From IMG/VR virus record IMGVR_UViG_3300010430_000264, positions 1 through 35,639 of that record: a stretch of 35,639 nucleotides of DNA; one strand, written 5' to 3'. Source of the DNA: a virus. Shown piece by piece: positions 2,915-33,347 of this stretch. Numbering within the stretch: the stretch's first letter is position 1; the number at the start of each line of letters is the position of its first letter. The notes beneath the pieces are model-generated. The model saw only the letters and a list, made by a program, of their open reading frames with translations, did not search any database and was not told the origin of the DNA. A program made the position numbers and the translations under genes.

Positions 2915-3561
2915 CAGTTTGCCTCCCGGATCACGGTGATGCGGCCCGGCCAGTCCCGCACGATGGTGCCGGGCAGGTGGATGACATACTGCACGCCCAC
3001 TCGCGGGCTCAGCGGGCGCTCCTCGCCTTCCCAGCAGTCCAGGTCACAGAGCACGGTCATGGTATTGGCCTCGCCGTGCAGGGCCAGTACGGTGCCCTCG
3101 ATCCAGCAGTCAGGGCGGCCGGTGCCGACGCGGTCGAAGTCCTGGCACCGTACCGTCATGCCCTCGCGGATCTCCGGCGGTGTGGCGGGGGTGTCGGCTC
3201 GCTGCCCTGCGCCGGCCTGGTAGGCCCGCTCCCGGGCTTCGGCCTGCTTCGCCCTGGCCTTGCCGGGCGTCTCCTGGGCGGGCACCAGGGCGGCGATGGT
3301 GCGCTCAGCGATGGACAGGCACTTGGAGCAGGTGACCTGCTCGCGGATGTCGCCCAGGTGCGTGCCGCCGATCCACGTCCCCATCCGGATCGCCCAGTCC
3401 GCGCGGTCGCCGGCCGTGCGGGTGATCGTGCCGCATCCACTGCGGCGCAGCTTGGTCCGCATCCACTGCTGGTCCAGCTTCCTGGGGACCATCCAGTGCG
3501 TGAACTTCCCGCCCACTGTCTTGTCCTTGCGTCCGCCGGTGCCGTTGCTCTTGCTCGTCAT
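2914..3561 (-). CDS. Hypothetical protein with a CxxC pair
   Basis: 215 residues, not recognised. It is basic at the N-terminus, has VTCSKCL near residue 77 (a half zinc-binding site) and a helical, Ala/Arg/Glu-rich middle. The C-terminal ~80 residues (REGMTVRCQDF...TVLALHGEANTMTVLCDLDCWEG) look like a small beta-barrel such as an SH3- or KOW-like module. The start at 3561 follows the CACAGGAGACGAGACC ribosome site shared by several genes here and the hairpin at 3587-3611. Middle gene of the 4758-2284 unit. Confidence 0.7.
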   Translation of the reverse strand: MTSKSNGTGGRKDKTVGGKFTHWMVPRKLDQQWMRTKLRRSGCGTITRTAGDRADWAIRMGTWIGGTHLGDIREQVTCSKCLSIAERTIAALVPAQETPGKARAKQAEARERAYQAGAGQRADTPATPPEIREGMTVRCQDFDRVGTGRPDCWIEGTVLALHGEANTMTVLCDLDCWEGEERPLSPRVGVQYVIHLPGTIVRDWPGRITVIREAN

Positions 3562-3586
3562 GGTCTCGTCTCCTGTGCAGGTGGTC

Positions 3587-3611
3587 GGCCCGGGGGCGAA
3601 TCCCCCGGGCC
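3587..3611 (-). promoter_or_regulatory. Repeated intergenic hairpin + leader, copy 1
   Basis: GGCCCGGGGG and CCCCCGGGCC form a perfect 10-bp stem with a five-base loop. On the minus strand it is followed by a conserved ~25-base leader containing CACAGGAGACGAGACC and then the ATG at 3561. Nearly identical hairpin-leader units precede the genes starting at 4136 and 5391. Likely a processing, stability or translation-control element. Confidence 0.7.
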
Positions 3612-3623
3612 ATCGTGGGGCGG

Positions 3624-4136
3624 TCAGGCGCTGACGTGGGCCAGCTGGTGCAGCAGCCCGTCAACGTCGTGCGAGTCGCGGACGTGGTTGTCCGCTTCCG
3701 TGGTCGCCATGTACTGGCGGGACCGTCCATCCCAGCCGGCGAACAGGCCCTTGATGCTGGTGCCCTCAACCGGGCGCATCGCGTCGTCGCCAGCCTCGCG
3801 GCTCTTCGCGATGGCCGACTCCACCGGGGCCCGCAGGCGCTCGCGGCGGGTGTCCAGGGCGTCCATCGAGTAGTGCGCGTTGATGAACAGGTTACCGCCG
3901 CTCAGGATGTCGTGCGTGATCTCACACCGGCGCACCTGCTGCTGCCCTTCCGCGATCTCGCGGATCGGTGCCAGGTCCAGGTCGGGATCCTTCACGGTCA
4001 CGTTGATGCTGCTCCCCATCGAGTAGCGGTGGATGCGCACGCTCACCTGGCGCGGCTTGATGTCGAAGCGGGCCCGCAGCTGGTCGCGGATCGTCTCGGC
4101 GGCAACGGCGGTGCGGTCATTGATCTTGCTGGTCAT
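3624..4136 (-). CDS. Hypothetical protein, possible LPD29-like domain
   Basis: 170 residues. The first ~100 residues (IRDQLRARF, then VSVRIHRYSMGSSINVTVKDP and IREIAEGQQ) resemble the small alpha/beta 'large polyvalent protein associated' domain LPD29, which is common in phages and mobile elements and has no established biochemical role. The C-terminal part contains SIKGLFAGWDGRSRQYMATTEADNHVRD and is unassigned. It is preceded by the conserved hairpin-leader module and a strong ribosome site. The domain match is from memory and moderate. Confidence 0.65.
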   Translation of the reverse strand: MTSKINDRTAVAAETIRDQLRARFDIKPRQVSVRIHRYSMGSSINVTVKDPDLDLAPIREIAEGQQQVRRCEITHDILSGGNLFINAHYSMDALDTRRERLRAPVESAIAKSREAGDDAMRPVEGTSIKGLFAGWDGRSRQYMATTEADNHVRDSHDVDGLLHQLAHVSA

Positions 4137-4161
4137 GGTCTCGTCTCCTGTGCAGGTGGTC

Positions 4162-4186
4162 GGCCCGGGAGCGAATCCCCCGGGCC
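4162..4186 (-). promoter_or_regulatory. Repeated intergenic hairpin + leader, copy 2
   Basis: Same element as at 3587-3611 with a single A-C mispair in the 10-bp stem; the loop CGAAT is identical. It precedes the gene starting at 4136 and follows the stop of the 185-residue gene by about 15 bases. Confidence 0.7.
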
Positions 4187-4200
4187 TGTCGGTCGTCGGC

Positions 4201-4758
4201 CTAGAGTTCGGTCAGCAGGTCGCGCTGGCTCCGGAAGATGTTGATGTACTCGATCATGTCGCTGGCGTGCTTCCCGTAGATCCGGGCGTCCTGCTGGGTC
4301 ACGCCGTAGTCCGCATCCAGGACGCTCTCGCGCAACTCGTCGGCGTGGTCGGCCATGATCGTGAGCAGCTTCTCAAGCTGGGCCAGCTGGTGCGCCGCCT
4401 GGTCACGGATCCCGTCTTCGGCGGTGGGCTTCGGGTCGGTGGCCAGCTGGCCACGGGCGGCCAGGCGCAGCTGAGTGTAGTCCACGCTATCGTAGTCGTT
4501 CTGCGGCATGGAGTAGAAGGTGGTCGGCGTGCCGTTGATCTCGGTGTGCTCGACGCGGACCAGGCCATCCTCGCGCAGCCGGGCGATGCAGCCGCCCAGG
4601 CTGGTAGGGCCGCCGGCCGCGCCGTACAGGTCGGTGTCGCCCACGTCGGTGAAGTGCGGCTCGTAGAGTCCGTCAGCGATGGCGGCGAGCACGGCGGCGC
4701 TCTTGGCGGGCAGGTTCTTGGCGGCTTCGTTCAGGCTGGTCAGGTTCGCGGTGGTCAT
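4201..4758 (-). CDS. Hypothetical early protein with winged-helix-like N-terminus
   Basis: 185 residues. The start is the ATG at 4758, because the repeated CAGGAGACGAGACA ribosome site lies directly upstream; an in-frame GTG at 4821 has no such site and would lie in the promoter leader. Residues about 1-80 (LPAKSAAVLAAIADGLYEP, then TSLGGCIARLREDGLVRVEH and a short beta hairpin) have the layout of a winged helix that tests for a rule such as 'L..LxxxGLV'. The remainder is helical. First gene of the unit driven by the promoter at 4813-4840. Role unknown; an early regulator is possible. Confidence 0.7.
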   Translation of the reverse strand: MTTANLTSLNEAAKNLPAKSAAVLAAIADGLYEPHFTDVGDTDLYGAAGGPTSLGGCIARLREDGLVRVEHTEINGTPTTFYSMPQNDYDSVDYTQLRLAARGQLATDPKPTAEDGIRDQAAHQLAQLEKLLTIMADHADELRESVLDADYGVTQQDARIYGKHASDMIEYINIFRSQRDLLTEL

Positions 4759-4812
4759 TGTCTCGTCTCCTGTGCTGGTGTCGGCCTGGGGCCCTTCCCC
4801 TGGCGCCCCGTA

Positions 4813-4840
4813 AACGTACACTAATATGGTACGCGCACAA
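4813..4840 (-). promoter_or_regulatory. Early promoter P1 with embedded inverted repeat
   Basis: On the minus strand TTGTGC (4835-4840) and TACGTT (4813-4818) are separated by 16 bases and fit -35 and -10 boxes loosely. Between and overlapping them, CGTAC (4815-4819) and GTACG (4829-4833) form an inverted repeat spaced by nine bases, which is operator-like. It sits just after a terminator and before the gene starting at 4758, and is almost identical to 6534-6561. The promoter call rests on position, duplication and boxes, not on a known consensus for this host. Confidence 0.55.
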
Positions 4841-4852
4841 CCCTCCGGGACG

Positions 4853-4983: not shown

Positions 4984-5391
4984 CTACCCCCGGAAGCTCG
5001 CGACGGTGCACAGCTGGCAAGGCTGGGGGTCGTGGTCCAGGTGCGCGGTGTCCCAGTGAATCGCCCCGTCGAGCCCGCTGACCCAGCAGCCCAGGACGTC
5101 AGGGTCGGACGGCAGCGGGACGGCGTGGATGTGCACGTCCAGGTGGTCCAGGCAAGCGGCGACCGAAGGCCGCTTCTGGCCGCTGACGCTGGGGCTCCAG
5201 TTCGCCCTCATGTTCCGGATCGCCTCCTGGCGGGTCTTGCCACGTCCCCAGCAGAGCGGGCCCACGGCGATGAACTCGTGGTCGATGATGACCTGGCGCA
5301 GCTGGTCCTGGATCACGGCGGCCGGTGTGGCCTCCTGCTGCTCGAGCTGGTGCGCCCTGGCGCTCATGCTCATGCGGTCTTGGTCTGCCAT
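4984..5391 (-). CDS. Hypothetical early protein
   Basis: 135 residues, not recognised. It starts with a helical, Gln/Glu-rich segment, then contains a region (VIIDHEFIAVGPLCWGRGKTRQEAIRNMRANW) that could be an alpha/beta fold of the HicB-like or dsRNA-binding-like type. It ends CQLCTVASF, with a CxxC. The ATG at 5391 follows TCCTGTGCAGG-type leader and the conserved hairpin. Last gene of its unit, closed by the terminator at 4853-4896. Confidence 0.65.
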   Translation of the reverse strand: MADQDRMSMSARAHQLEQQEATPAAVIQDQLRQVIIDHEFIAVGPLCWGRGKTRQEAIRNMRANWSPSVSGQKRPSVAACLDHLDVHIHAVPLPSDPDVLGCWVSGLDGAIHWDTAHLDHDPQPCQLCTVASFRG

Positions 5392-5417
5392 TGTCTTGTC
5401 CTCCTGTGCAGGCGGTC

Positions 5418-5442
5418 GGCCCGGGAGCGAATCCCCCGGGCC
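5418..5442 (-). promoter_or_regulatory. Repeated intergenic hairpin + leader, copy 3
   Basis: Same stem-loop as at 4162-4186 including the A-C mispair and CGAAT loop. It lies between the stop at 5455 and the start at 5391. The three copies show that the element belongs to the gap between genes and not to a particular gene family. Confidence 0.7.
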
Positions 5443-5454
5443 CTGATCGGCTGT

Positions 5455-6255
5455 CTAGTCCCGGCCGCTGGCGGGAACCTCGTCATAGGCGCACCGCTCG
5501 ATGGCGACGCGGAGCGCGGCATAGAGAGCGCAGTGCACGGTCACGCGGCTGGTCCCCTGGACGTGCCCCTCGACCGCGCGGTCACTGAGCGAGCGGTGCA
5601 GGCGGATCTCGTCCACCAGCTGGTCGCGAGTCTGAAGGCTGCGGCTGAACTTCATCCGGCGCGTGAGGTGCGACTTCAGCAGGGCCGGGCTCCAGTTGTC
5701 GGCCTGGGCAGAGTTCTCCAGGCGGCCGGCGATGCGGCAGCACTCGCGGACCAGGGCGTGGCCGGTGAGCGGACCCAGGTCGCTGACATCCACAACCGTG
5801 TCCGTGCGAGCGGTGCGGCGCGAAAGCTCCAGCACCAGGACGGCCTTCCGATCCAGGGCGTCGGCCCGGCGCTCTTCGGCGGCGGCCAGATAGTAGTGGT
5901 CGGTGGTCTGGTCGATGATCCAGTTCAGGTGCTCAAGCTCGTCGCTGATGTCGCCCGCGTTCATGCTCGCGGGGTCGGGGGTGTCGCCATCGGCCAGGCG
6001 CTTGATGTCGATCTGCACCGGCGCGTCCTGGAGGTCGTGGATCGCGTACACCTCGTTCAGAACATCCCGGCCGCGCTCGGTGCAGTCGGTCGAGAAGCTG
6101 GAGTAGCGAGCGCCCAGGCCGTCGCCGGTCGCGCAGACCGTGCCCAGCACAGCCTGGGCCACGTCGCCGGCAGCCTTGAAGCGGTAACCGTTGGTCGCGA
6201 TGGTGACGGTGATCGTGTTGCTCGGGTCGTTGCTGTTGATGATGGCGGTGGTCAT
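5455..6255 (-). CDS. Hypothetical early protein
   Basis: 266 residues, not recognised. The N-terminus (TAIINSNDPSNTITVTIATNGYRF) looks beta-stranded; the remainder is mostly helical, with HLNWIIDQTTDHYYLAAAEERRADALDRKAVLVLEL as a probable long helix. It has two cysteines together (VRECCR) but no metal site I can assign. ATG at 6255 has CAGGAGACGAAACA upstream. Second gene of the P2 unit. Confidence 0.7.
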   Translation of the reverse strand: MTTAIINSNDPSNTITVTIATNGYRFKAAGDVAQAVLGTVCATGDGLGARYSSFSTDCTERGRDVLNEVYAIHDLQDAPVQIDIKRLADGDTPDPASMNAGDISDELEHLNWIIDQTTDHYYLAAAEERRADALDRKAVLVLELSRRTARTDTVVDVSDLGPLTGHALVRECCRIAGRLENSAQADNWSPALLKSHLTRRMKFSRSLQTRDQLVDEIRLHRSLSDRAVEGHVQGTSRVTVHCALYAALRVAIERCAYDEVPASGRD

Positions 6256-6277
6256 TGTTTCGTCTCCTGTGCTGGGT

Positions 6278-6481: not shown

Positions 6482-6533
6482 CGTCTCTCTCCCGTGCTGG
6501 TGTTGCCTGGGGCCCTTCCCCTGGCGCCCCCCT

Positions 6534-6561
6534 AACGTACACTAATACGGTACGCGCACAA
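6534..6561 (-). promoter_or_regulatory. Early promoter P2 with embedded inverted repeat
   Basis: Near-identical to P1: TTGTGC (6556-6561), 16-base spacer, TACGTT (6534-6539), with CGTAC (6536-6540) and GTACG (6550-6554) as an inverted repeat. The only change inside the element is one base in the centre of the repeat. It follows the terminator of the IbrB-like gene and precedes the gene starting at 6481. Confidence 0.55.
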
Positions 6562-6571
6562 CCCCCGAACA

Positions 6572-6715: not shown

Positions 6716-7222
6716 TCAGTCGCCGTCAGGAACCCATCCCTTGCCGAACTCGCCGGCGGTGTTCGTGTCGGTGCTGGGGCGATGCGCGTGCAGCAGTCGG
6801 TCGATCTCTTCCTGTTCCATGCCCAGGCGCTTGCCCAGTTCTTCGTGGTCCAGGGTGTCGGCCAACTCGATCACCAGTGAAGCCATCCGCATGATCGCGT
6901 GCTGACCCCGGGCGCGGTTGTGTCGAACGGTAGACATGATGCGTTCATCGCGGTCCTTGCTCACGAATACCACAGGGACACAGCCGTCGCCCAGGGCCCT
7001 CACTTCATCATCATTGCTCGCCAGTGTCCAGCGATGGAAGCCGTCCACGATCACGTTGTCCATCGTCGCGACGATTGGCTGGGTCCACCCGTCCTCGAGC
7101 AAAGACAGGCGCAGCAGATCCAGCTCCGGTTTGAATACCTGGTTCGGGTTGTAATCGTTCGCGGTCAGCAGGGCGGGATCGACCCAGTGCACGGCGGCGA
7201 GTGGTTGGTCGGTGCGCGGCAT
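6716..7222 (-). CDS. IbrB-like ParB/Srx-fold protein
   Basis: 168 residues with one ParB/sulfiredoxin-type domain: ANDYNPNQV (22-29), DGWTQPIV (44-51), DGFHRW (60-65, in place of the ParB GERR box) and HNRARGQH (101-108), followed by a helical segment and an acidic end. These motifs are those of IbrB, the partner of IbrA in pathogenic E. coli, where the pair influences expression of immunoglobulin-binding (Eib) surface proteins. There is no ParB helix-turn-helix, so it should not bind parS itself. Its ATG overlaps the stop of the IbrA-like gene (TGATG), giving coupled synthesis and a likely one-to-one complex. The biochemical activity of IbrB is not established. Confidence 0.8.
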   Translation of the reverse strand: MPRTDQPLAAVHWVDPALLTANDYNPNQVFKPELDLLRLSLLEDGWTQPIVATMDNVIVDGFHRWTLASNDDEVRALGDGCVPVVFVSKDRDERIMSTVRHNRARGQHAIMRMASLVIELADTLDHEELGKRLGMEQEEIDRLLHAHRPSTDTNTAGEFGKGWVPDGD

Positions 7223-8352
7223 CAGTACCGTCCTTTGTCCTGGGCATCGCGATTGTAGGTTGGCGTCCGGCGGCCCTTCATGTCCCCACGGAGGCAGAGC
7301 TTGTAGAGGTACTTCCAGGTCACGCCGGTGGCGCCCGGCTTCTCCATCGGGATCTTCTCGCCGCTCTTGCTGTAGTGGTTTCCGATCTCGGTCTTGATGC
7401 GGTCCCGCAGTCCGGCCTGTTGATCCTCTGGCCAGAGCGCGATGGCGTCCTGGATCTGCTGGTGCGGATCGCGGTCGGGATCCCAGCCGGCAAGGTTGAG
7501 GCCGAACCCGTATAGCTCGCTGGTCGAGTACCTGGCGGCGGTGGCCGCGCCGGGCACCCGCTGGACCATGCGATCCCAGAGGTCAGGCCAGCAGACAGCG
7601 TACTGCCACAGACCTCGCAGCGGCTCCTCGCCATACGGCGGACAGACCCGCTGGTCTGCCACGTCGATCCCGGCGGCCCGCATCACGTCATAAGCGCGAT
7701 TGTAGTCCCAGCCGAACAGCTGGGGCGCGGTCCAGATGTCCGCGTCGGTCCAGTCGTAGATCGGCTTCACCAGGTTGACGTGCCGGGCGTGAGCGTCCCG
7801 GCCGATGAAGTTGTCTTCGATCTTGCCGGCGACCGCTCGGTATCGGTTCAGGGACTCGCTGGCCCTGAGCCCCAGCATCACGCCCACGGTGCCCAGGTCA
7901 CGGGGCAGGGCGTAGCCGTTGCACTCCGGGGCAGGCTGGCGAGCGAAGCCCGCACCGGGCAGCTGAGTCAGCGCCTCGGGCGGCAGCGGCCTGCACCACT
8001 TGGCCTCGTCCTCCGGGGCCCAGGGGTGCCACCAGGGCGACGTGCGGGAGCAGGCGTTCCGATGCTTGATCGGGACGCAATACCAGTCCAGGCGCACGCG
8101 GGGATCCTGGGCGACCCGGGTCATGTACTCGATGGTCTCGGGGTGGATCGCCTCTTCATCCCAGAAGAAGGCGTGCACCGGCAGGGCGTCCCGCAGCTCG
8201 GCGACCTCCAGCACCAGGTTCAGCAGGGCGGTACTGTCCTTGCCCCCGCTGAAGGCCACGGCGATGTGGTCGTGCAGATCGTAGGCCCGATCTATGCGCT
8301 CGCGGGCCAGCTCCAGGACGTCGGCGTCGATCACTTTCTTACGGTAGACCAC
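7222..8352 (-). CDS. IbrA-like PAPS-reductase/ATP-pyrophosphatase family protein
   Basis: 376 residues from a GTG at 8352, chosen because AGGGGG lies five bases upstream and it overlaps the preceding gene only slightly. It has the N-type ATP-pyrophosphatase loop SGGKDS (35-40), then FFWDEEAIHP. The C-terminal part has YDWTDADIWTAPQLFGWDYNRAYDVM, DQRVCPPYGEEPLRGL and PDLWDRMVQRVPGA, the layout of the IbrA/DUF3440 group. The family activates a substrate by adenylation; true PAPS reductases reduce PAPS, but the substrate of IbrA-type proteins is unknown. Several cysteines lie after the core, so a metal or sulfur site is possible. It pairs with the downstream IbrB-like gene. Confidence 0.8.
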   Translation of the reverse strand: MVYRKKVIDADVLELARERIDRAYDLHDHIAVAFSGGKDSTALLNLVLEVAELRDALPVHAFFWDEEAIHPETIEYMTRVAQDPRVRLDWYCVPIKHRNACSRTSPWWHPWAPEDEAKWCRPLPPEALTQLPGAGFARQPAPECNGYALPRDLGTVGVMLGLRASESLNRYRAVAGKIEDNFIGRDAHARHVNLVKPIYDWTDADIWTAPQLFGWDYNRAYDVMRAAGIDVADQRVCPPYGEEPLRGLWQYAVCWPDLWDRMVQRVPGAATAARYSTSELYGFGLNLAGWDPDRDPHQQIQDAIALWPEDQQAGLRDRIKTEIGNHYSKSGEKIPMEKPGATGVTWKYLYKLCLRGDMKGRRTPTYNRDAQDKGRY

Positions 8353-9127
8353 GGCGCCCCCTGGCCTCGAGCGCCCACTTGTGCGTCTCCAGGATTTCGG
8401 GTTCCCGCTCGCGGATCTGCTGCACGCTCGTCCTGGCCCACGGCCTGGGGCCGGTGTTGAAGCCTGCATGGTAGCCGTAGCTCGGGTGCCAGGGCAGACC
8501 CTCGCGGGCGCAGAGCGCGATGACCGCCTCGTGCGGCCAGTCGTGCAGCGGGTTCAGGATCATCATGCGGTCTCGCCTGGTGGACTTCGGCCCGGCCGGT
8601 GCGTTGTTACCGTCGATGGTGCGCCGGCCGAAGATCATCAGCTTGCACCCGCTGTTCAGGTAGGCCCGCTCCTGCGGCTTCCAGTTCAGCCAAGTATTCC
8701 AGAGCTGATTGGAGTAACGCCGCACGTCTGCAGGGCAGTCGTCGTCCTCCGGGAACAGCATCCCCGGGCGCTCGGCCAGGTACACCGCATCGATCAGGCT
8801 GCGCTCCACGAACACATCACGGGGGCGCACCTGGTCATACCAGCGCAGGGACTCCGCGAACTCCAGGGAGTCGCTGGTCATGCACTGGACTCCGGCGGTG
8901 ACGTCGGCCTGCTGCGCGATCCAGTAGGCCGCGATGCTGTCCTTGCCGCCGGACCAGGCCACCAGCACGTCGGCCGGTGTGATCTTCAGGAAGTAGATCG
9001 CAGCGCGAACCCGGTGCACCGCCTGGATGATGTGTTGATCCAGGACGTGCGACGGCAGAAGGGCGGCCCCGGTTTCCAGGGCCTCCCTCCAATCGTCATC
9101 GGTGACGCTGTGCTTCGTCCCCAGCAA
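8339..9127 (-). CDS. Second PAPS-reductase/ATP-pyrophosphatase-like protein
   Basis: 262 residues. SGGKDS at 59-64 in the context VLVAWSGGKDSIAAYWIAQQ marks an adenine-nucleotide alpha-hydrolase of the PAPS reductase superfamily. FGRRTIDGNNAP and LNPLHDWPHEAVIALC fit the later part of the fold (a WxxxDV-like segment). It is shorter than, and clearly different from, the IbrA-like neighbour, so the operon carries two non-identical enzymes of the superfamily. The start is a TTG at 9127, two bases after the cupin stop, with AGGGGG upstream. Its stop overlaps the next gene by 14 bases. Substrate unknown. Confidence 0.75.
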   Translation of the reverse strand: MLGTKHSVTDDDWREALETGAALLPSHVLDQHIIQAVHRVRAAIYFLKITPADVLVAWSGGKDSIAAYWIAQQADVTAGVQCMTSDSLEFAESLRWYDQVRPRDVFVERSLIDAVYLAERPGMLFPEDDDCPADVRRYSNQLWNTWLNWKPQERAYLNSGCKLMIFGRRTIDGNNAPAGPKSTRRDRMMILNPLHDWPHEAVIALCAREGLPWHPSYGYHAGFNTGPRPWARTSVQQIREREPEILETHKWALEARGRRGLP

Positions 9128-9128
9128 A

Positions 9129-9860
9129 TCAGGCCCCCTGATTCATCAGGTAGGTGCCGTTGAACATGGGGTGATTGAACTCAGCCGCGCCGCTGCTGCT
9201 GAAGACGTGGAACGGGATGCAGACCAGCGGCTGGTTCTGCCCGATGGTGTCGAAGTGGTGCGGGCACATCGGCTCCAGGATCAGCGTCGTTCCAGGCACC
9301 AGCCGCACGGCGACCTGGTTCCCTTCCATGCCCACGATGCAGGTGCCGTGCCCCTCCAGGATGTGGACCACGCGCACGGTGCTGTGGATGTGATGCGCCT
9401 GCTCCTCGCTGCCCGCAGGAATCCGCAGGTACTGGAGCGTCGGGTCGCCCAGGCGCACCGGCGGGAACAGCTGCTGAGTTGAACAGCCGTTGACGTAGGG
9501 CAGGGTCGTGCCCTGGCCTGCGATCTGCACCGCTCGCGATGGCGGGCGGTAGCCTTCCATCAGGACGCCGAACCGCTGGGTCCGCCGCTTGCCCGGACCA
9601 CTGTGCCAGTTGGCCCACTCGCCGGCCTCGTCCAGGACGCAGAGCGACTGCCAGGTGGAGAGCTCCAGGGTGTGATTCCCGTGATAGGCCGTGAACTGGT
9701 AGAGGTTGTCGGGGTCGGCGTCGTAGATCGCCTTCTCGCCAGGCGGGAAGAACTTGGCGCCGAAGTTGTCCAGGATGCGCTGGGCCGGTTCAACAAAGCC
9801 CAGGGCGGGGTCGAGTTCCACGCGGCCCTCGGCCGGCGCAGGAGTGTGAAGCAGGGTCAT
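9129..9860 (-). CDS. Cupin-fold protein in the ParB/PAPS cassette
   Basis: 243 residues. The C-terminal half is a cupin: AHHIHSTVRVVHILEGHG (residues 155-172, with His157/159 and Glu169 as likely metal ligands) and a second motif with PHHFDT (200-205). The N-terminal ~110 residues (KAIYDADPDNLYQFTAYHGNH) are unassigned and may be another beta domain. Cupins include metal-dependent oxygenases, isomerases and ligand-binding regulators; which applies is unknown. The ATG overlaps the TGA of the ParB-like gene (ATGA), and the PAPS-like gene follows two bases after its stop, so it is an integral part of the cassette. Confidence 0.7.
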   Translation of the reverse strand: MTLLHTPAPAEGRVELDPALGFVEPAQRILDNFGAKFFPPGEKAIYDADPDNLYQFTAYHGNHTLELSTWQSLCVLDEAGEWANWHSGPGKRRTQRFGVLMEGYRPPSRAVQIAGQGTTLPYVNGCSTQQLFPPVRLGDPTLQYLRIPAGSEEQAHHIHSTVRVVHILEGHGTCIVGMEGNQVAVRLVPGTTLILEPMCPHHFDTIGQNQPLVCIPFHVFSSSGAAEFNHPMFNGTYLMNQGA

Positions 9861-10549
9861 GCCTGGTTCCTTTCCATGAACTGTTCGCAGAGCAGGGCGA
9901 CGGCGGTGCCTTGAGAGTCAGCGCCATCGACCATCTCGATTTTGCGGGCCAGCTGCACCGCGTTCAGCACCGCCTGGCGCTCGTCGCGGCTCATCGTCAG
10001 CACGAGGGTGACCAGCTCCGATGTCGCACCCGGCCCGCCGCCGGTGCCCTGGTCCCCGTCCTCGCCGCCTGAGCCCGCCCCGGAGCCGTTGCCGTCTCCC
10101 AGGAAGGCCAAGTCCCCGGCGGCCGTGACAAGGCCGCCCAGAGCTTCTTCCGTGAAGCCCAGTGCCGTGATGTCGATGTCCGGCAGCTGGGCCAGCTCGC
10201 CGACCTCGATGGCCAGTAGCTCGTGATCCCAGCTGCCCCGCCTGGCCAGCTCGTTGTCGGCCAGCAGGTAGGCCCGCCGCTCGTTCGCGCTCAGGTGTTC
10301 CAGCACGATGACCGGAACCTTCTCCATTTCCAGCTGCTGCGCGGCCATCAGCCGGCCGTGGCCCGCGATTATGGAGCCGTCTTCGCCCACTAGGATCGGG
10401 TTATTGAATCCCCACTTCTCGATGCTGCGGGCGATGTCTGCCACCTGGTCGTCAGGGTGCTGCATCGGGTTGCGGTCGTAGGGTTGGAGCTTGTCCAGCG
10501 TCCACATCTGGATCTTCCGCGCCAGGCGGCGTTTCACGTCAGCGCCCAC
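9857..10549 (-). CDS. ParB-like (ParB/Srx domain) protein, no methylase domain
   Basis: 230 residues. Residues about 14-135 form a ParB N-terminal domain: LQPYDRNPMQHPDDQV, RSIEKWGFNNPILV, GSIIAGHGRLMAAQQL (GHGR at 63-66 in the place of the ParB CTP/catalytic box) and DNELA. It resembles the ParB-like domain often fused to phage adenine methylases, but here it is followed by a glycine/acid-rich linker (about 152-180) and a short helical end, so the methylase is absent. The GTG at 10549 follows GGGG and overlaps the previous gene by 11 bases. Likely nucleotide- or DNA-binding; first gene of the cupin-IbrAB block. Confidence 0.78.
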   Translation of the reverse strand: MGADVKRRLARKIQMWTLDKLQPYDRNPMQHPDDQVADIARSIEKWGFNNPILVGEDGSIIAGHGRLMAAQQLEMEKVPVIVLEHLSANERRAYLLADNELARRGSWDHELLAIEVGELAQLPDIDITALGFTEEALGGLVTAAGDLAFLGDGNGSGAGSGGEDGDQGTGGGPGATSELVTLVLTMSRDERQAVLNAVQLARKIEMVDGADSQGTAVALLCEQFMERNQA

Positions 10550-10739
10550 GGTTGTCCCCTTCCACGTCCTGGATCAGCTGGTCCAGTTCCTCGCTCACCG
10601 TGCGGGCGGGCTGGATCATCCGGTGGAAGAACTCGCCCAGTTCCTTGAACGTCCTGGCGCCAGCTTCCGCCAGCTGCGCAGCGACCTCCAGCGAGCTGGG
10701 GTCGTGGTGCCCTTTCCTGGGCGGTAGTCGGTGGCCCAT
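10539..10739 (-). CDS. Small hypothetical protein
   Basis: 66 residues, helical and charged (LEVAAQLAEAGARTFKELGEFFHRMIQPARTVSEELDQL), not recognised. Its ATG overlaps the stop of the preceding gene (TGATG), and its own end overlaps the ParB-like start, so it is translationally coupled on both sides. No domain assigned. Confidence 0.6.
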   Translation of the reverse strand: MGHRLPPRKGHHDPSSLEVAAQLAEAGARTFKELGEFFHRMIQPARTVSEELDQLIQDVEGDNRGR

Positions 10740-15536: not shown

Positions 15537-15965
15537 CTATCCACACCCGGACCCGCTCTCTACCGGGAAGAAAACGCCGTAGCTGGTAGAGGTAGCTTCG
15601 TCGTTTCGCCAGCTGGCGAGAAGCTCGACCCGGTGCCCGCTCTTGGTGTTGTATCCGATGGGGTGCATCTGGCCACCCTGGCCGCCGGCCTGGCGCCACT
15701 TCTCGGCCTGCTCATCGTGGGGTGGCGGCACGGCCACGAGGTCGGTCCAGTGTTTCCCCACCACGTCCTGCGGCTTCCAGCCCAGGATGGCGGTGAAGGC
15801 TGGATTCACGAAGGCCACGAACCCGTCCCGGTAGATCATGCAGGGCGCGTTCAGCAGTTCGAAGAAGTGCCGGAAGTGGCGGTCCTGTTCCAGCTCCTGC
15901 CCCAGCTGGCGCAGGGCGGTGAGGTTGGGTAGCGGCAACGGGTCGGGGATCGGGCGTCCTGTCAT
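15537..15965 (-). CDS. Free-standing PAS-domain protein
   Basis: 142 residues, almost all one PAS fold: residues 33-135, with FFELLNAPCMIYRDGFVAFVNPAF (53-57 is the VNPAF strand-turn), ILGWKPQDVVGKHWTDLV and a beta sheet ending VELLASWR...TSYGVFFPVE. PAS domains bind small ligands, haem or flavin and normally sit on kinases, cyclases or regulators; here no output domain is attached. The ATG overlaps the stop of the tail hub gene (TAATG) and lysis genes follow, so it is made with the late proteins. It may be a virion-associated sensor or a competitor of host PAS signalling. Ligand and role are unknown. Confidence 0.78.
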   Translation of the reverse strand: MTGRPIPDPLPLPNLTALRQLGQELEQDRHFRHFFELLNAPCMIYRDGFVAFVNPAFTAILGWKPQDVVGKHWTDLVAVPPPHDEQAEKWRQAGGQGGQMHPIGYNTKSGHRVELLASWRNDEATSTSYGVFFPVESGSGCG

Positions 15966-17977
15966 TACAGCCCTTCCCCCGGCCACCGCTCGCGGATGCC
16001 CTGGTGCAGCTGCCGAATCTGGTGCGGCCTCAGAACAGCGTTGTACACCTGGATCTCGGCGATGCGTCCCTCCAGGCTTTCCGCGTCGTCGTAGTGCGAA
16101 TACCCGATGCCGTATGCCTGGTGATCCTGGTCGCCAGTGGGGCCCGGGTCGGTTTTCGGCAGCCCCCTGGCGTCGGTGCCGGCCATGATGTCGATGGCGG
16201 CCTGGCCCTCGAGGAAGTTGTTCGACTGCCAGACGAAGGTCAGGATGTGCCACTCGTCCATGAGCGGCGCCTGGTCCACGTCGGTGCTGGACCACCAGCT
16301 GGTGTTCTGATACTCCAGCCCCAGCTCGGGGTCGCTGCCCAGGTTGCGGACGCCAACGGCCCAGGCGTCACCGAAGTCACGGTCCGCGCTGAACACCCAA
16401 CCCGTGGCCGGGTCGCTGCCGTCGATCCGGACCACCGCGATGATGGTCGTCCCGCCGTAGACCTCAGACGCCAGGGTGCCGGACACCTTCATGCCCACGA
16501 CCCCGGCCTGGTTGAAGTCGGGAATCTGGTAGCCGGCCAGGCCGTTGCCCACGGTGGAGAGTAGCGGGCCGGTCGCAGGCGCCCGCAGATCCGCGTCGTT
16601 GCCGTTGCCGCTCTGGTCTGCCCAGTCGGTGACCTCGCTTCCGCTGGTCGTGATCCCGGTCTGCGCGTGGAGCCAGAGCGTGCAGAAGTCGTTCAGGTTC
16701 GCGGCCGTGGGATCGATGGCCGCAGGCTCGTCAATCTGGAGCACCTGGACCAGGGCGTGCAGGGTGGTCCAGTTGATGGTCTTGCTGGTGACCAGCAGCC
16801 GCTCGGTCCCGTCCATGCCGTGACGCGCAGCGGCCAGGTGGATGATGTCGCCCACGTCGAAGTCCCAGTGCGCGGGCCCCATCGGGATGCTGATGTCGCG
16901 GCGCAGACCCAGCCAACGGGACGGCATGATGTTGTCCGCGCTTTCCAGATCCTGGATTTCGGTCTGCTGGCGCTCCAGGCTGCGGCTGCCCTTCGCGTCT
17001 TCGCTGGCGGTGTCTACGTCGATGTGCTGGTTCGCGGGGCCTTCCATGAAGGTGTCAAGGTACGGCGCGACCACCTGCTCCCGGAGCGCCACGGGGTACT
17101 CGGGGGTGCCGTTATCGACCCAGCCGTATCCCCAGGACGAGACCACGCGGTTGAGGATGAACTGGTCGGTCCACCGCACGGTCGGCGCTGCCGTCAGGAA
17201 AGTGCTCTCCCCGTAGTCGCCATCAATCACCGTTGACAGCTCGCGCAGCACGTCCCAGTCGAGCACGCCCAGGCCCAGCTGCTGCACGGTGTCGTCGCCG
17301 TCCTGGTATCCGCCGTAGCGGAGCATCGCCCCGGCCTGGCCGGTCAGGCGCTTTAAGTGCTGCATCAGGGATTCGCCGGCCACGCGATGGGTCTGGATGC
17401 GCCGCCGCCGCAGGTACGACCATACGCCGATGCTGTAGTTGAAGGCGGCTTCCCGATCCAGGTAGTCCTTCGCGGTGGCCGCGCCGGCAGAGTAGAAGCG
17501 GGCGAACGCGAACAGCAGCTTGGCCACGTCCATGCCCCGCCAGTGCAGCGGGATCCGCGCCTGCATCAAGAAGCCGTCCGCGCCGTTGTAATCGGTGAGG
17601 TCGAAAGATCCCATCTCGCCCAGGCTGACCGTGTTCGATGCCTGTGACTCGCGGAGCCAGGGCGGCTTCGCGGTGTGCAGGAAATACCAGTACCGGCAGA
17701 AGTCGGCGGTGGGGTTTACGAACCCGAACTCTACGCTGTACGTCGTGGGCTTCCGGTCCCCCGATGCGTTGTCCTGGTAGAAGTCCAGGGTCTCCGGGCT
17801 CTGCGGGATCGCGGGGATACCGTGGAAGTCGGAATCGGATTGTAGCAGGTCCACGGTCAGCACGCTGCCCAGGGCGCTGGTGGACTGCACCTTCGGCGGG
17901 TTGGCGACCCACGGGTCACTGCTCGCCGAATCCCAGTCGGCGGCGAGGAGAGGCTTGTAGAATCGGTGCCCAGCCAT
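15965..17977 (-). CDS. Tail hub/tip protein with C-terminal LamG-like (concanavalin-like) domain
   Basis: 670 residues. The N-terminal ~430 residues contain tail-hub-type text: HWDFDVGDIIHLAAARHGMDG...LLVTSKTINWTTLHALVQVLQI (about 370-415), the 'level then conversion table' strand pattern of baseplate hub proteins. From about 435, LHAQTGITTSGSEVTDWADQSGNGNDADLRAP...TIIAVVRIDG...WHILTFVW...LEGRIAEIQVYN is a laminin-G/concanavalin-like lectin domain that probably binds a host surface glycan. The fusion suggests it sits at the tail tip and makes first contact. ATG at 17977 directly follows the previous stop. Confidence 0.7.
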   Translation of the reverse strand: MAGHRFYKPLLAADWDSASSDPWVANPPKVQSTSALGSVLTVDLLQSDSDFHGIPAIPQSPETLDFYQDNASGDRKPTTYSVEFGFVNPTADFCRYWYFLHTAKPPWLRESQASNTVSLGEMGSFDLTDYNGADGFLMQARIPLHWRGMDVAKLLFAFARFYSAGAATAKDYLDREAAFNYSIGVWSYLRRRRIQTHRVAGESLMQHLKRLTGQAGAMLRYGGYQDGDDTVQQLGLGVLDWDVLRELSTVIDGDYGESTFLTAAPTVRWTDQFILNRVVSSWGYGWVDNGTPEYPVALREQVVAPYLDTFMEGPANQHIDVDTASEDAKGSRSLERQQTEIQDLESADNIMPSRWLGLRRDISIPMGPAHWDFDVGDIIHLAAARHGMDGTERLLVTSKTINWTTLHALVQVLQIDEPAAIDPTAANLNDFCTLWLHAQTGITTSGSEVTDWADQSGNGNDADLRAPATGPLLSTVGNGLAGYQIPDFNQAGVVGMKVSGTLASEVYGGTTIIAVVRIDGSDPATGWVFSADRDFGDAWAVGVRNLGSDPELGLEYQNTSWWSSTDVDQAPLMDEWHILTFVWQSNNFLEGQAAIDIMAGTDARGLPKTDPGPTGDQDHQAYGIGYSHYDDAESLEGRIAEIQVYNAVLRPHQIRQLHQGIRERWPGEGL

Positions 17978-30687: not shown

Positions 30688-30709
30688 GTCGCGGGGATTC
30701 TTCCCCTAT
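30688..30709. repeat. 22-bp direct repeat, copy B
   Basis: Identical to 2289-2310 (see there). It spans the stop codon of the large terminase gene and lies about 50 bases upstream of the 190-residue head gene, so it cannot be explained by protein similarity: it is read in different frames of unrelated proteins at its two sites. Confidence 0.75.
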
Positions 30710-32619
30710 GACTTCTTCCGCTTCCAGTCGTTGATCCAGTTCGTCGGCCGGCGGCGGACAGCCGATTGGAAGCCAGGGCTCAGGCGGGGGCCCTTCTCCG
30801 GTTCCTGCGGGGTAGGCTCGTCGTGATAGGTCTCGGCCAGCGCATCCCAGACCGGGCTCAAGATGTACAGCGCGGCCAGGGCGTACTGGAAACAGTCAAG
30901 GCCCTCGACGCGCGCCCGGGTCGGCTTCCACACCCGGCGCAGTCTGCCCTGGTGGATGTGCGGTTCGCAGACCTCGCCGCAGACCTGCTGCGCCCACTCC
31001 TCATCAAATCCGGGCCGGACCGGGACGTGGATGTACCCGGGGCCCTTCTCGGTCAGGTTGAGCCGGGCATAGATCAGGCCCTTGCAAGTATCCGATCCGA
31101 CGATGAACAGCGGGACCACAACCGCCTCAACGCCCGGAGCGCCCGCCCGCTTCCTGGTAACCGGCGCGGCCACCAGGGGGCGCCCCTCGCCGCCGCGCCC
31201 CTGGATGGCCCAGACCCGGCGGTGTGATCGGGCAGAGACCCAGCGGTACACGGTATCGGTCTTGTAGTTCGCATCGACGCAGCAGCCCGTGATCTCCATC
31301 GGCTGGCCGCTCTCGTGCTGATAGCTGGAGCCCAGCCAATCGTCCAGCTGCTCCCAGGGGGCGCTGGTGTCCGGATCGCCGAAGAACACCCGGGTCTCAA
31401 TCGCCCAGGATTCTTCACCCCGGCCGAAGGCCCAGGCGGTCGCCTCCAGGCGGTCGTCCTGCACATCCACTCCGGCCAGGATGACCAGGGCCTTCATCGG
31501 CACGTCCGTGGGGAACTGCTCGCGGCGGGCGAACAGCTTCTCCCAGTCCGCGCCGGTGCCCTCTTCCTTCCACACTTCGCCCAGCACGAGGTTCGTCCAC
31601 GTCTTCAGCTTGCGCCGGCGGTCGGCGTGCTCGTTGGCCTCCAGGAACTGCCGCACCTGGGCCTCCCAGGTGCGCATCCCCAGCGGCGCGTAAAGCTGGG
31701 GCAGGTGGTATCCGCGCACGTCGGGCGGGCACCCTTCCTTCGTCTGGCGCCACTCTGCATTTCCGATGCGCAGCAGCTCGGGCTTGTCGCGCTCGGTGTG
31801 GCCGTGCTCACACTTCAGGCATACCAGGCGCACGGTCTCGGGCTTGCCCTTCTCCCACTTCAGGCGCTTCCAGCTGATGATGTCATAGTCGCCGCAGCGC
31901 AGGCACGGCACGAAGTAGCGGCGCTGATCGGTGTTCTTGAACAGGCCCTGGATTCGGCTGGCGCCGTCGATGGTCGGGGTGCACGGAACGAACATCTTGG
32001 ACTGCGCAGCGTAGGCGCTGGCGCGGCCCTCGATCAGATCCATCGGATCGCCCTCGCCGTCCACGTCCTCGGGGTAGCGGTCGGGCTCGTCCGGGAACAG
32101 GTAGCGGGCGCTGAACTGCGACAGGCCCGCGCTGCTGTTCGCGCCGGCCATGCCCAGGATGCCGTCCGATCCGAACTCGGTCAGGGCCTGAGTGTTGCCA
32201 CCGTCGCGAGACTTCTTCGGCGCGATCCACCTGGCGACGCACGGCAGTTTCATCATCGGTTCCAGGCGCTGCCGCCTGGTGCGCCTGGCCATCTGGTCGG
32301 TCGGCAGCACCATCAGGATCGGGCCGTGCGCGGCGGGCTCGGCCATGAGGTAGCCGACCCAGTTGTTCCCGATCTCGCTGCCGCCGATCTGGCCGCCCTT
32401 CATGAAGATCACCACGCGGATCGGGCTGTCCATCGACAGGCAATCCATCGGCTCCACAAGGAAGGGGGTGCGGTCGTTGTTCCAGGCACCAGGGAATGGC
32501 GATTCCTTCCGGGTCAGAACGCGGTTCGCTTCCGCCCACTCAGACACCTGCGGCCTATCCGGCGGCATGAACCCTTCGCCGAAATAGACCAGCAGATCCT
32601 CTGCCCGGATCGCGCTCAA
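30706..32619 (-). CDS. Terminase large subunit (GpA family)
   Basis: 637 residues from a TTG at 32619 that overlaps the upstream stop; a GTG at 32658 is an alternative adding 13 residues. The ATPase has Walker A KGGQIGGSE (around 74-82) and Walker B region LFPDEPDRYPEDVDGEGDP. Two CxxC pairs (CLRCGDYD and CLKCEHGH) form a zinc site as in GpA. The C-terminal nuclease domain has AGVDVQDDRLE and CVDANYKTDTVYRW with metal-binding aspartates. The enzyme cuts concatemers and drives DNA into the prohead; a GpA-type enzyme usually makes cos ends. Confidence 0.95.
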   Translation of the reverse strand: MSAIRAEDLLVYFGEGFMPPDRPQVSEWAEANRVLTRKESPFPGAWNNDRTPFLVEPMDCLSMDSPIRVVIFMKGGQIGGSEIGNNWVGYLMAEPAAHGPILMVLPTDQMARRTRRQRLEPMMKLPCVARWIAPKKSRDGGNTQALTEFGSDGILGMAGANSSAGLSQFSARYLFPDEPDRYPEDVDGEGDPMDLIEGRASAYAAQSKMFVPCTPTIDGASRIQGLFKNTDQRRYFVPCLRCGDYDIISWKRLKWEKGKPETVRLVCLKCEHGHTERDKPELLRIGNAEWRQTKEGCPPDVRGYHLPQLYAPLGMRTWEAQVRQFLEANEHADRRRKLKTWTNLVLGEVWKEEGTGADWEKLFARREQFPTDVPMKALVILAGVDVQDDRLEATAWAFGRGEESWAIETRVFFGDPDTSAPWEQLDDWLGSSYQHESGQPMEITGCCVDANYKTDTVYRWVSARSHRRVWAIQGRGGEGRPLVAAPVTRKRAGAPGVEAVVVPLFIVGSDTCKGLIYARLNLTEKGPGYIHVPVRPGFDEEWAQQVCGEVCEPHIHQGRLRRVWKPTRARVEGLDCFQYALAALYILSPVWDALAETYHDEPTPQEPEKGPRLSPGFQSAVRRRPTNWINDWKRKKS

Positions 32620-33347
32620 ATCTCGTCGGGCTCCGGCAGGGCACCGGCCGGCGGGCACTCGGGAAGCAGGATCTCGAGCGGGCCCACCAGGTCACCCTTC
32701 AGCCCCAGGGAATCGACCATGCCGCCCCACACCCGATAGTTGCCGGGCTCCAGTCCCCAGTTGCTGTGCAGCTTGGTGGTCACGAAGTCGTCCAGGACGA
32801 AGTTCCCGTCGAAGTCTTCGATCAGGAAGTAGTATTCCGTCAGCGGCAGCCCCGGGTCCGGGCGGTCGGGGATAACCGTCTCGGGGTCCGGGTCGCAATC
32901 ATCGAAGATGAGGAACAGTTCACCGCTCTGGCCCCAGAGGCTGTCCTGCACTGAGATGCGCAGTTCGAACGGCGGGGTGAGCCAGGCCCGCACGGCCGTG
33001 GACGTGGCGCCCACTTCTATGCCCTGCTCCTGATACCATTGCCCCGCGTTCAACTCGCCAGGGGTCTGGGTCGCGCCGAAGGCCCAGGGCACACCGTTGG
33101 TCCAGATCACACCGGGCACGTCGCCCTGCTCGGGCGGCAGCTGGCGGACCCACATCCCAGCGTCGCCGTCGCCCTGGTCGAACACGAAGAACATCTGGCC
33201 GTTGATCGTCTGCTGGTAGCCGCCCACGTTGTTCGCGGTGTCCTGGCCGAACCTGGAGAACAGACCCAGCAGGCCGATGTCCACGTAGATCAGTCCGGCG
33301 CCGGCGGTGATCGCCAGGGCAGCCGCTATCACGGTCATCCGTCTCAC
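32616..33347 (-). CDS. Membrane-anchored or secreted protein inserted between the terminase genes
   Basis: 243 residues from a GTG at 33347 overlapping the small terminase stop (GTGA), with AAGGGGA as ribosome site; an ATG at 33338 would be too far from it. The N-terminus MRRMTVIAAALAITAGAGLIYV is a signal-anchor; the rest is beta-rich, acidic, with a Pro/Asp-rich linker (DDCDPDPETVIPDRPDPG) between two similar-sized halves. Both neighbours are packaging genes, so a membrane protein here is a likely cargo gene (host-surface change or superinfection exclusion). No family recognised. Confidence 0.7.
   Translation of the reverse strand: MRRMTVIAAALAITAGAGLIYVDIGLLGLFSRFGQDTANNVGGYQQTINGQMFFVFDQGDGDAGMWVRQLPPEQGDVPGVIWTNGVPWAFGATQTPGELNAGQWYQEQGIEVGATSTAVRAWLTPPFELRISVQDSLWGQSGELFLIFDDCDPDPETVIPDRPDPGLPLTEYYFLIEDFDGNFVLDDFVTTKLHSNWGLEPGNYRVWGGMVDSLGLKGDLVGPLEILLPECPPAGALPEPDEI

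Follow-up and report, generated by a model that had tools for sequence, protein, structure and literature searches.

The virus record IMGVR_UViG_3300010430_000264 of IMG/VR, analysed here over its whole length of 35,639 bases and called the window below, carries five coupled genes on its minus strand at positions 6716-10549. In order of transcription they encode a ParB-fold protein (ParB1), a cupin, a PP-loop protein of the PAPS-reductase fold (PAPS1), an IbrA-like PP-loop protein and an IbrB-like ParB-fold protein. We find that these genes form a conserved system and are not chance neighbours, and that across viral contigs the core of this system is retained while the genes that accompany it are exchanged. 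Phage records often contain IbrA-like and ParB-like genes, for which no biochemical function is known; in the system described here they form the core of a multi-gene unit that mostly stands beside packaging genes. One slot of this unit is exchangeable, for genes that would import or synthesise a small molecule, and its contents give concrete hypotheses about the chemistry.

Conservation of the cassette across viral contigs

Open reading frames were called mechanically, and the cassette genes were assigned to families using Pfam, PHROGs and NCBIfam. A family census identified a lambda-type set of structural genes (GpA terminase, portal, capsid, tape measure and amidase). The record lacks an exact terminal repeat and may therefore be incomplete. 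All five genes that had been described as coupled are present, with ends that touch or overlap as claimed. ParB1 (9857..10549) overlaps the cupin gene (9129..9860) by 4 nucleotides (ATGA), and a single nucleotide separates the cupin stop codon from the TTG start of PAPS1 (8339..9127), which is preceded by a G-rich, Shine-Dalgarno-like stretch. The IbrA-like open frame extends from 7222 to 8469; its start is most likely the GTG at 8352, which has AGGGGG upstream, so that the ATG at 8469 would give too long a frame. With this start the gene (7222..8352) overlaps PAPS1 by about 14 nucleotides, and it shares 1 nucleotide (TGATG) with the IbrB-like gene (6716..7222). Because a 66-residue frame of no known family in Pfam or PHROGs (10539..10739, minus strand) overlaps the start of ParB1 by 11 nucleotides, it may be the first member of the coupled run, which would then start ahead of ParB1.

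To assess conservation we searched contigs that are mostly metagenomic, taking the best 80 loci from each search, with results biased toward the query; genes in these loci were labelled by sequence similarity to the window proteins and not by position. PAPS1 is the rarest cassette family, with one match in 50,697 named phage records, a gut phage in which a symporter-like gene, PAPS1, ParB1, IbrA and IbrB stand in a row. A scan of viral contigs with the single PAPS1 sequence returned no relatives; a two-sequence profile built from the window and this distant phage returned 101. Among the best 80 of these 101, IbrA was present in every locus and IbrB in 79, the one remaining locus being interrupted by a contig end. 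The order SSF-PAPS1-ParB1-IbrA-IbrB recurs in 62 of the 80 (within L027-L106); in seven others a different membrane-like gene replaces SSF, and in three the last two genes are swapped. Since the PAPS1 proteins of this set fall into 12 clusters at 60% identity, the count does not reflect copies of one phage. The symporter gene is a clear SSF member (PF00474, 2.7e-23) and overlaps PAPS1, typically by about 4 nucleotides. A sodium:solute symporter (for example L052:6592-7995) is a surprising yet common phage gene in these contigs.

Searches of the same 50,697 named phage records for the cupin family found no member. Because PAPS1 and the cupin are so rare in named phages yet frequent in viral contigs, the system has been overlooked. 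The preliminary description of the window had read the five genes as one cassette and had named unrelated neighbours in most genomes as the contrary outcome; the co-occurrence check, run here on viral contigs, did not yield that outcome, and the recurrence of the gene order bears the reading out.

Exchange of supply genes and position beside the terminase

A search anchored on IbrA added 80 further loci, and IbrA and IbrB are adjacent in 165 of the 169 pooled IbrA loci. The IbrA tree resolves three supported groups, namely a gut type with SSF, bare IbrA-IbrB pairs and the clade of the window. Within the window clade the commonest order is ParB1-cupin-IbrA-IbrB (13 loci). The exact five-gene order of the window occurs in L178, whose PAPS1 scores weakly against the PAPS1 profile but matches PAPS_reduct at 4.9e-17, and in L189; L200 has the same order with an added glutamine amidotransferase (glutaminase) gene. 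What occupies the slot between ParB1 and IbrA varies across the clade: a cupin, an SSF symporter (L167 and L180; 2.2e-19), a TctC-type solute-binding receptor (L168 and L169; 1.7e-38), an aldehyde dehydrogenase (4.8e-104, alongside a small cupin in L185), or PAPS1 together with a class-II glutamine amidotransferase. Class-II glutaminases are found in several cassettes, and L028 and L047 carry ParB1, a small cupin, PAPS1, a glutaminase, IbrA, IbrB and an aldehyde dehydrogenase, with IbrA present three times in L028. Label changes on the IbrA tree number at least five for the cupin, eight for PAPS1, three for SSF and four for the glutaminase, and because of these repeated changes we conclude that the core is retained while the supply genes are exchanged. 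The cupin belongs to the cassette, as had been proposed, as one of several interchangeable genes and not as the fixed centre of a pathway.

Some of these loci have features of their own. The TctC-type tricarboxylate receptor at L168:2756-3598 takes the place of the cupin in a cassette carried by a phage, and a GP88-family protein (L028:5733-6542) lies directly upstream of ParB1. We considered whether the actinobacterial-type loci are non-phage elements and rejected this for L032, L046, L047 and L179, which carry TerL; L028, L048 and L081 may be such elements.

The extended cassettes also share a genomic position. Of 103 extended cassettes that could be tested, 94 are followed on their own strand, at a distance of no more than 3 kb, by a large terminase gene, compared to 2 of 35 bare IbrA-IbrB pairs. 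By group, this holds for 65 of 69 testable gut-type cassettes, 25 of 29 in the window clade and 4 of 5 others, and the adjoining terminases include the GpA, Terminase_6 and Terminase_3 types. That extended cassettes adjoin terminases and bare pairs do not argues for a role tied to phage DNA or to the packaging stage, and a link to phage DNA, suggested earlier from the window, is plausible in this light.

Predicted chemistry of the cassette proteins

The two PP-loop proteins were examined for residues that could indicate their chemistry. PAPS1 (PAPS_reduct, 4.5e-5) keeps the region of its AWSGGKDS loop invariant, together with G167, R169, D172, G173 and N174 (GxR..DGN), and none of its cysteines is invariant among the 31-32 relatives aligned. 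Its predicted model (predicted local distance difference test, pLDDT, 92.8) matches 7rge in Foldseek at 4.4e-7, which corresponds to the PAPS-reductase fold. The IbrA-like protein has an intact PP-loop, one conserved cysteine and matches to PAPS_reduct (1.8e-12) and DUF3440 (9.8e-7) that both exceed the Pfam cut-off, as well as to phrog_2302 (3.6e-81); together with the match of its partner to phrog_2159 (3.8e-57), these assignments uphold the earlier naming of the pair as IbrA/IbrB. The nearest relatives of the IbrA profile in the PDB are FAD synthase (1.2e-8) and CysD (2.8e-8), both of which transfer adenosine monophosphate (AMP) to an oxyanion. As its closest solved relatives transfer AMP, the comparison favours adenylation over sulfur transfer for IbrA. 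The cysteines of DndC and of PAPS reductase are conserved in neither of the two PP-loop proteins, and so sulfur chemistry appears unlikely for both.

ParB1 belongs to the phrog_620 lineage (2.5e-45), matches Pfam ParB_N at 1.2e-7, contains the motif IIAGHGR and, as a family profile, matches Spo0J at 1.3e-6. A zinc-ribbon-like CPKCGE motif is kept at the C-terminus of ParB1 in most gut-type cassettes (for example L021:6774-7379 and L040:8882-9538); ParB1 of the window lacks it. The IbrB-like protein carries the motifs DGFHR and HNRARG, and its family alignment shows D60, G61, H63 and R64 (DGxHR) and N102, R103, A104 and G106 (HNRA-G) to be invariant. Its match to Pfam ParB_N is only 0.024, under that model's cut-off, and its profile is nearest to ParB/Noc (Noc/Spo0J, about 7e-6), with free serine kinase weaker. 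The cassette had been described as symmetric, with two ParB-type and two PAPS-type genes; the members of each pair are only remotely related (profile-profile identity of just 14% for the PAPS-type and 23% for the ParB-type proteins), and we therefore rejected recent duplication of either pair.

The cupin (Cupin_2, 1.2e-6) is a two-barrel protein, or bicupin, whose predicted model (pLDDT 84.8) matches the bicupins DUF861, oxalate decarboxylase and BacB in Foldseek. The conserved histidines H156, H157, H159, H201, H202 and H218 suggest a metal site and are consistent with a metal enzyme. In a search anchored on the cupin, relatives in many other viral contigs adjoin an unrelated asparagine-synthetase-like PP-loop gene (L001, L003, L006, L010, L016, L018 and L110-L144), an association that we set aside as separate from the cassette; several of the loci with this second cupin/ligase association lie just upstream of neck- and terminase-looking genes. 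The closest cupins from bacterial genomes (L149, L151 and L152) adjoin AMP-ligase, ATP-grasp-like or NeuD-type acetyltransferase genes, and once lie near flagellin.

Elsewhere in the window, a leader-like repeat occurs at 3545-3611, 4120-4186, 4742-4808, 5376-5442 and 6232-6275, just before several consecutive small minus-strand genes downstream of the cassette, and a second repeat of 60 nucleotides with 93% identity occurs at 4784-4843 and 6505-6564. These repeats are possibly shared promoters or ribosome-binding leaders. A PAS-domain frame (15537-16295; PAS, 4.9e-8 in the one member scanned) stands among the tail and lysis genes, an uncommon feature in phages of this kind.

Proposed function and comparison with known systems

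The cassette has the look of a multi-step, ATP-dependent pathway, in agreement with the preliminary description; the further suggestions made there, DNA or nucleotide modification and anti-restriction, are putative functions. In the account that we put forward, to which we give an even chance, a modular pathway would obtain a small molecule, which may be an acid, by synthesis or import, activate it with ATP and couple it to the phage DNA ahead of packaging. The core would comprise IbrA, whose PP-loop is expected to split ATP into AMP and pyrophosphate, along with IbrB and ParB1. The supply genes, cupin and PAPS1 in the window and SSF, TctC, aldehyde dehydrogenase or class-II glutamine amidotransferase in its relatives, would deliver a small acid or amide; IbrA, with PAPS1, would adenylate this molecule or its acceptor; the ParB-fold proteins would bring in DNA or a nucleotide; and the group would be placed on phage DNA shortly before packaging, where it could shield the DNA from host nucleases. 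Here we infer the acidic substrate, the adenylation reaction, the DNA acceptor and the protective benefit alike. The glutaminase of some cassettes suggests amide formation, and SSF, TctC and aldehyde dehydrogenase, by family membership, suggest an acid substrate. A broader form of this account, which we advance tentatively, is a previously undescribed class of hypermodification in which PAPS-reductase-fold adenylating enzymes and ParB-fold proteins place a small acid on the DNA of the phage, or on the backbone of that DNA, just before packaging, with groups that differ between phages. The further element of this class, that the acid is imported or synthesised through an exchangeable importer, aldehyde dehydrogenase, glutaminase or cupin, is equally tentative.

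Several observations weigh against attachment to phage DNA. SSF, TctC and aldehyde dehydrogenase point to an acid only through the habits of their families, and the window census contains no DNA methyltransferase or other enzyme that could make a handle. The window's own large terminase gene, of the GpA type (30706..32658, minus strand; GpA_ATPase and GpA_nuclease; phrog_15, 3.9e-203), lies about 20 kb from the cassette on the linear record, unlike in most relatives, and adjacency to terminases could reflect a shared site for cargo or insertion. In bacterial genomes, moreover, the gene clusters that contain the cupin are of small-molecule or glycan type.

The main rival is a role directed at the host, in which the cassette would alter host physiology or gene expression by making a small adenylated metabolite or modifying a host macromolecule. 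It holds this place because the IbrA/IbrB pair has been described as co-activating the expression of prophage genes and because the cupin relatives found in bacteria lie in clusters of small-molecule type alongside AMP-ligase, ATP-grasp-like and NeuD-type genes; the transporters, cupins and aldehyde dehydrogenase are likewise metabolic genes. We nevertheless consider it somewhat unlikely, given that terminases of several types adjoin the extended cassettes and not the bare pairs, and that DNA or a nucleotide is the better-fitting target for a pair of ParB-fold proteins. Another candidate is a counter-defence module that, without marking DNA, would use ParB-fold NTPases and PP-loop partners to act on nucleotides or on the signals of defence systems. 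This would be in keeping with the capacity of ParB/Srx proteins to be NTPases or nucleases (discussed in PMC12839542) and with the presence of PP-loop proteins in defence systems, such as Cap9, which the IbrA profile matches weakly. Such a module is improbable in our view, as it leaves the symporter, solute-receptor, aldehyde-dehydrogenase and glutaminase partners unexplained.

The preliminary description had also pointed to DNA sulfur modification. A phosphorothioate-like system would cast the PAPS-type proteins as DndC/SspD and the ParB-type proteins as DndB, and PADLOC returns partial matches of IbrA to DndC (9.7e-8, 56 residues) and BrxP; in addition, IbrB carries the DGxHR motif and the ParB superfamily is taken to include DndB. 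However, the cassette offers no counterpart to the distinct cysteine dyad found in DndC (PMC10853773), the NCBIfam DndC model TIGR03183 scores 21.8 bits against a cut-off of 290.4, and partner genes of the Dnd families were not found in the window census. The likeness is weak, and we reject this explanation as very improbable. That the genes are unrelated cargo brought together by chance is scarcely credible: the cupin often occurs away from the cassette, either in bacterial clusters or paired with the asparagine-synthetase-like PP-loop gene, but contigs that have diverged strongly still show the same gene order, with genes that overlap at their ends and with exchange confined to one slot.

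Among openly accessible papers, the scope of our literature search (subscription papers and preprints lay outside it), we found none that describes the cassette. The cassette can be set against several known systems. As in the IbrA/IbrB pair known from E. coli and from many prophages, an IbrA-like protein with PAPS_reduct and DUF3440 stands directly beside an IbrB-like protein; that pair is known as a bare pair, whereas the present one is built into a cassette as its core, together with ParB1, PAPS1 and a supply gene. PAPS1 and IbrA share their fold and PP-loop with CysH PAPS reductases, FAD synthase and CysD, and PAPS1 differs from CysH in having no invariant cysteine, which the reductase reaction requires. 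Dnd and Ssp similarly combine an ATP pyrophosphatase of the PAPS-reductase fold with a partner from the ParB superfamily. Unlike Dnd, the cassette lacks a conserved cysteine set (none invariant in PAPS1, one in IbrA), and DndA, DndD and DndE are absent from the Pfam census of the window, a record that may be incomplete. In Dpd, which places 7-deazaguanine in DNA, the ParB-like ATPase DpdB assists the base-modifying enzyme (PMC12839542), and the cassette likewise sets a ParB-like protein alongside presumed modifying enzymes; neither a TGT (DpdA) nor a DpdC family member was found in the window census.

In Synechococcus phage S-B43, CmoY joins glycine to carboxymethylcytosine in phage DNA, the neighbourhoods of CmoY often hold ParBc proteins, and some of the ligases have a glutaminase domain (PMC12783734). 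No CmoA or methyltransferase family (CmoX) was found in the census of the possibly incomplete window or among the neighbours scanned. CmoY is asparagine-synthetase-like and acts on a carboxymethyl handle made by CmoA and the cytosine carboxymethyltransferase CmoX, whereas the cassette PP-loop proteins are of the PAPS-reductase/CysD type. The two systems have in common a phage-encoded, ATP-dependent PP-loop ligase (putative in the cassette), ParBc neighbours, a glutaminase and action on phage DNA, the last only proposed here. On this comparison, and without assigning the cassette to that system, we regard CmoX/CmoY DNA amidation as its nearest proven precedent.

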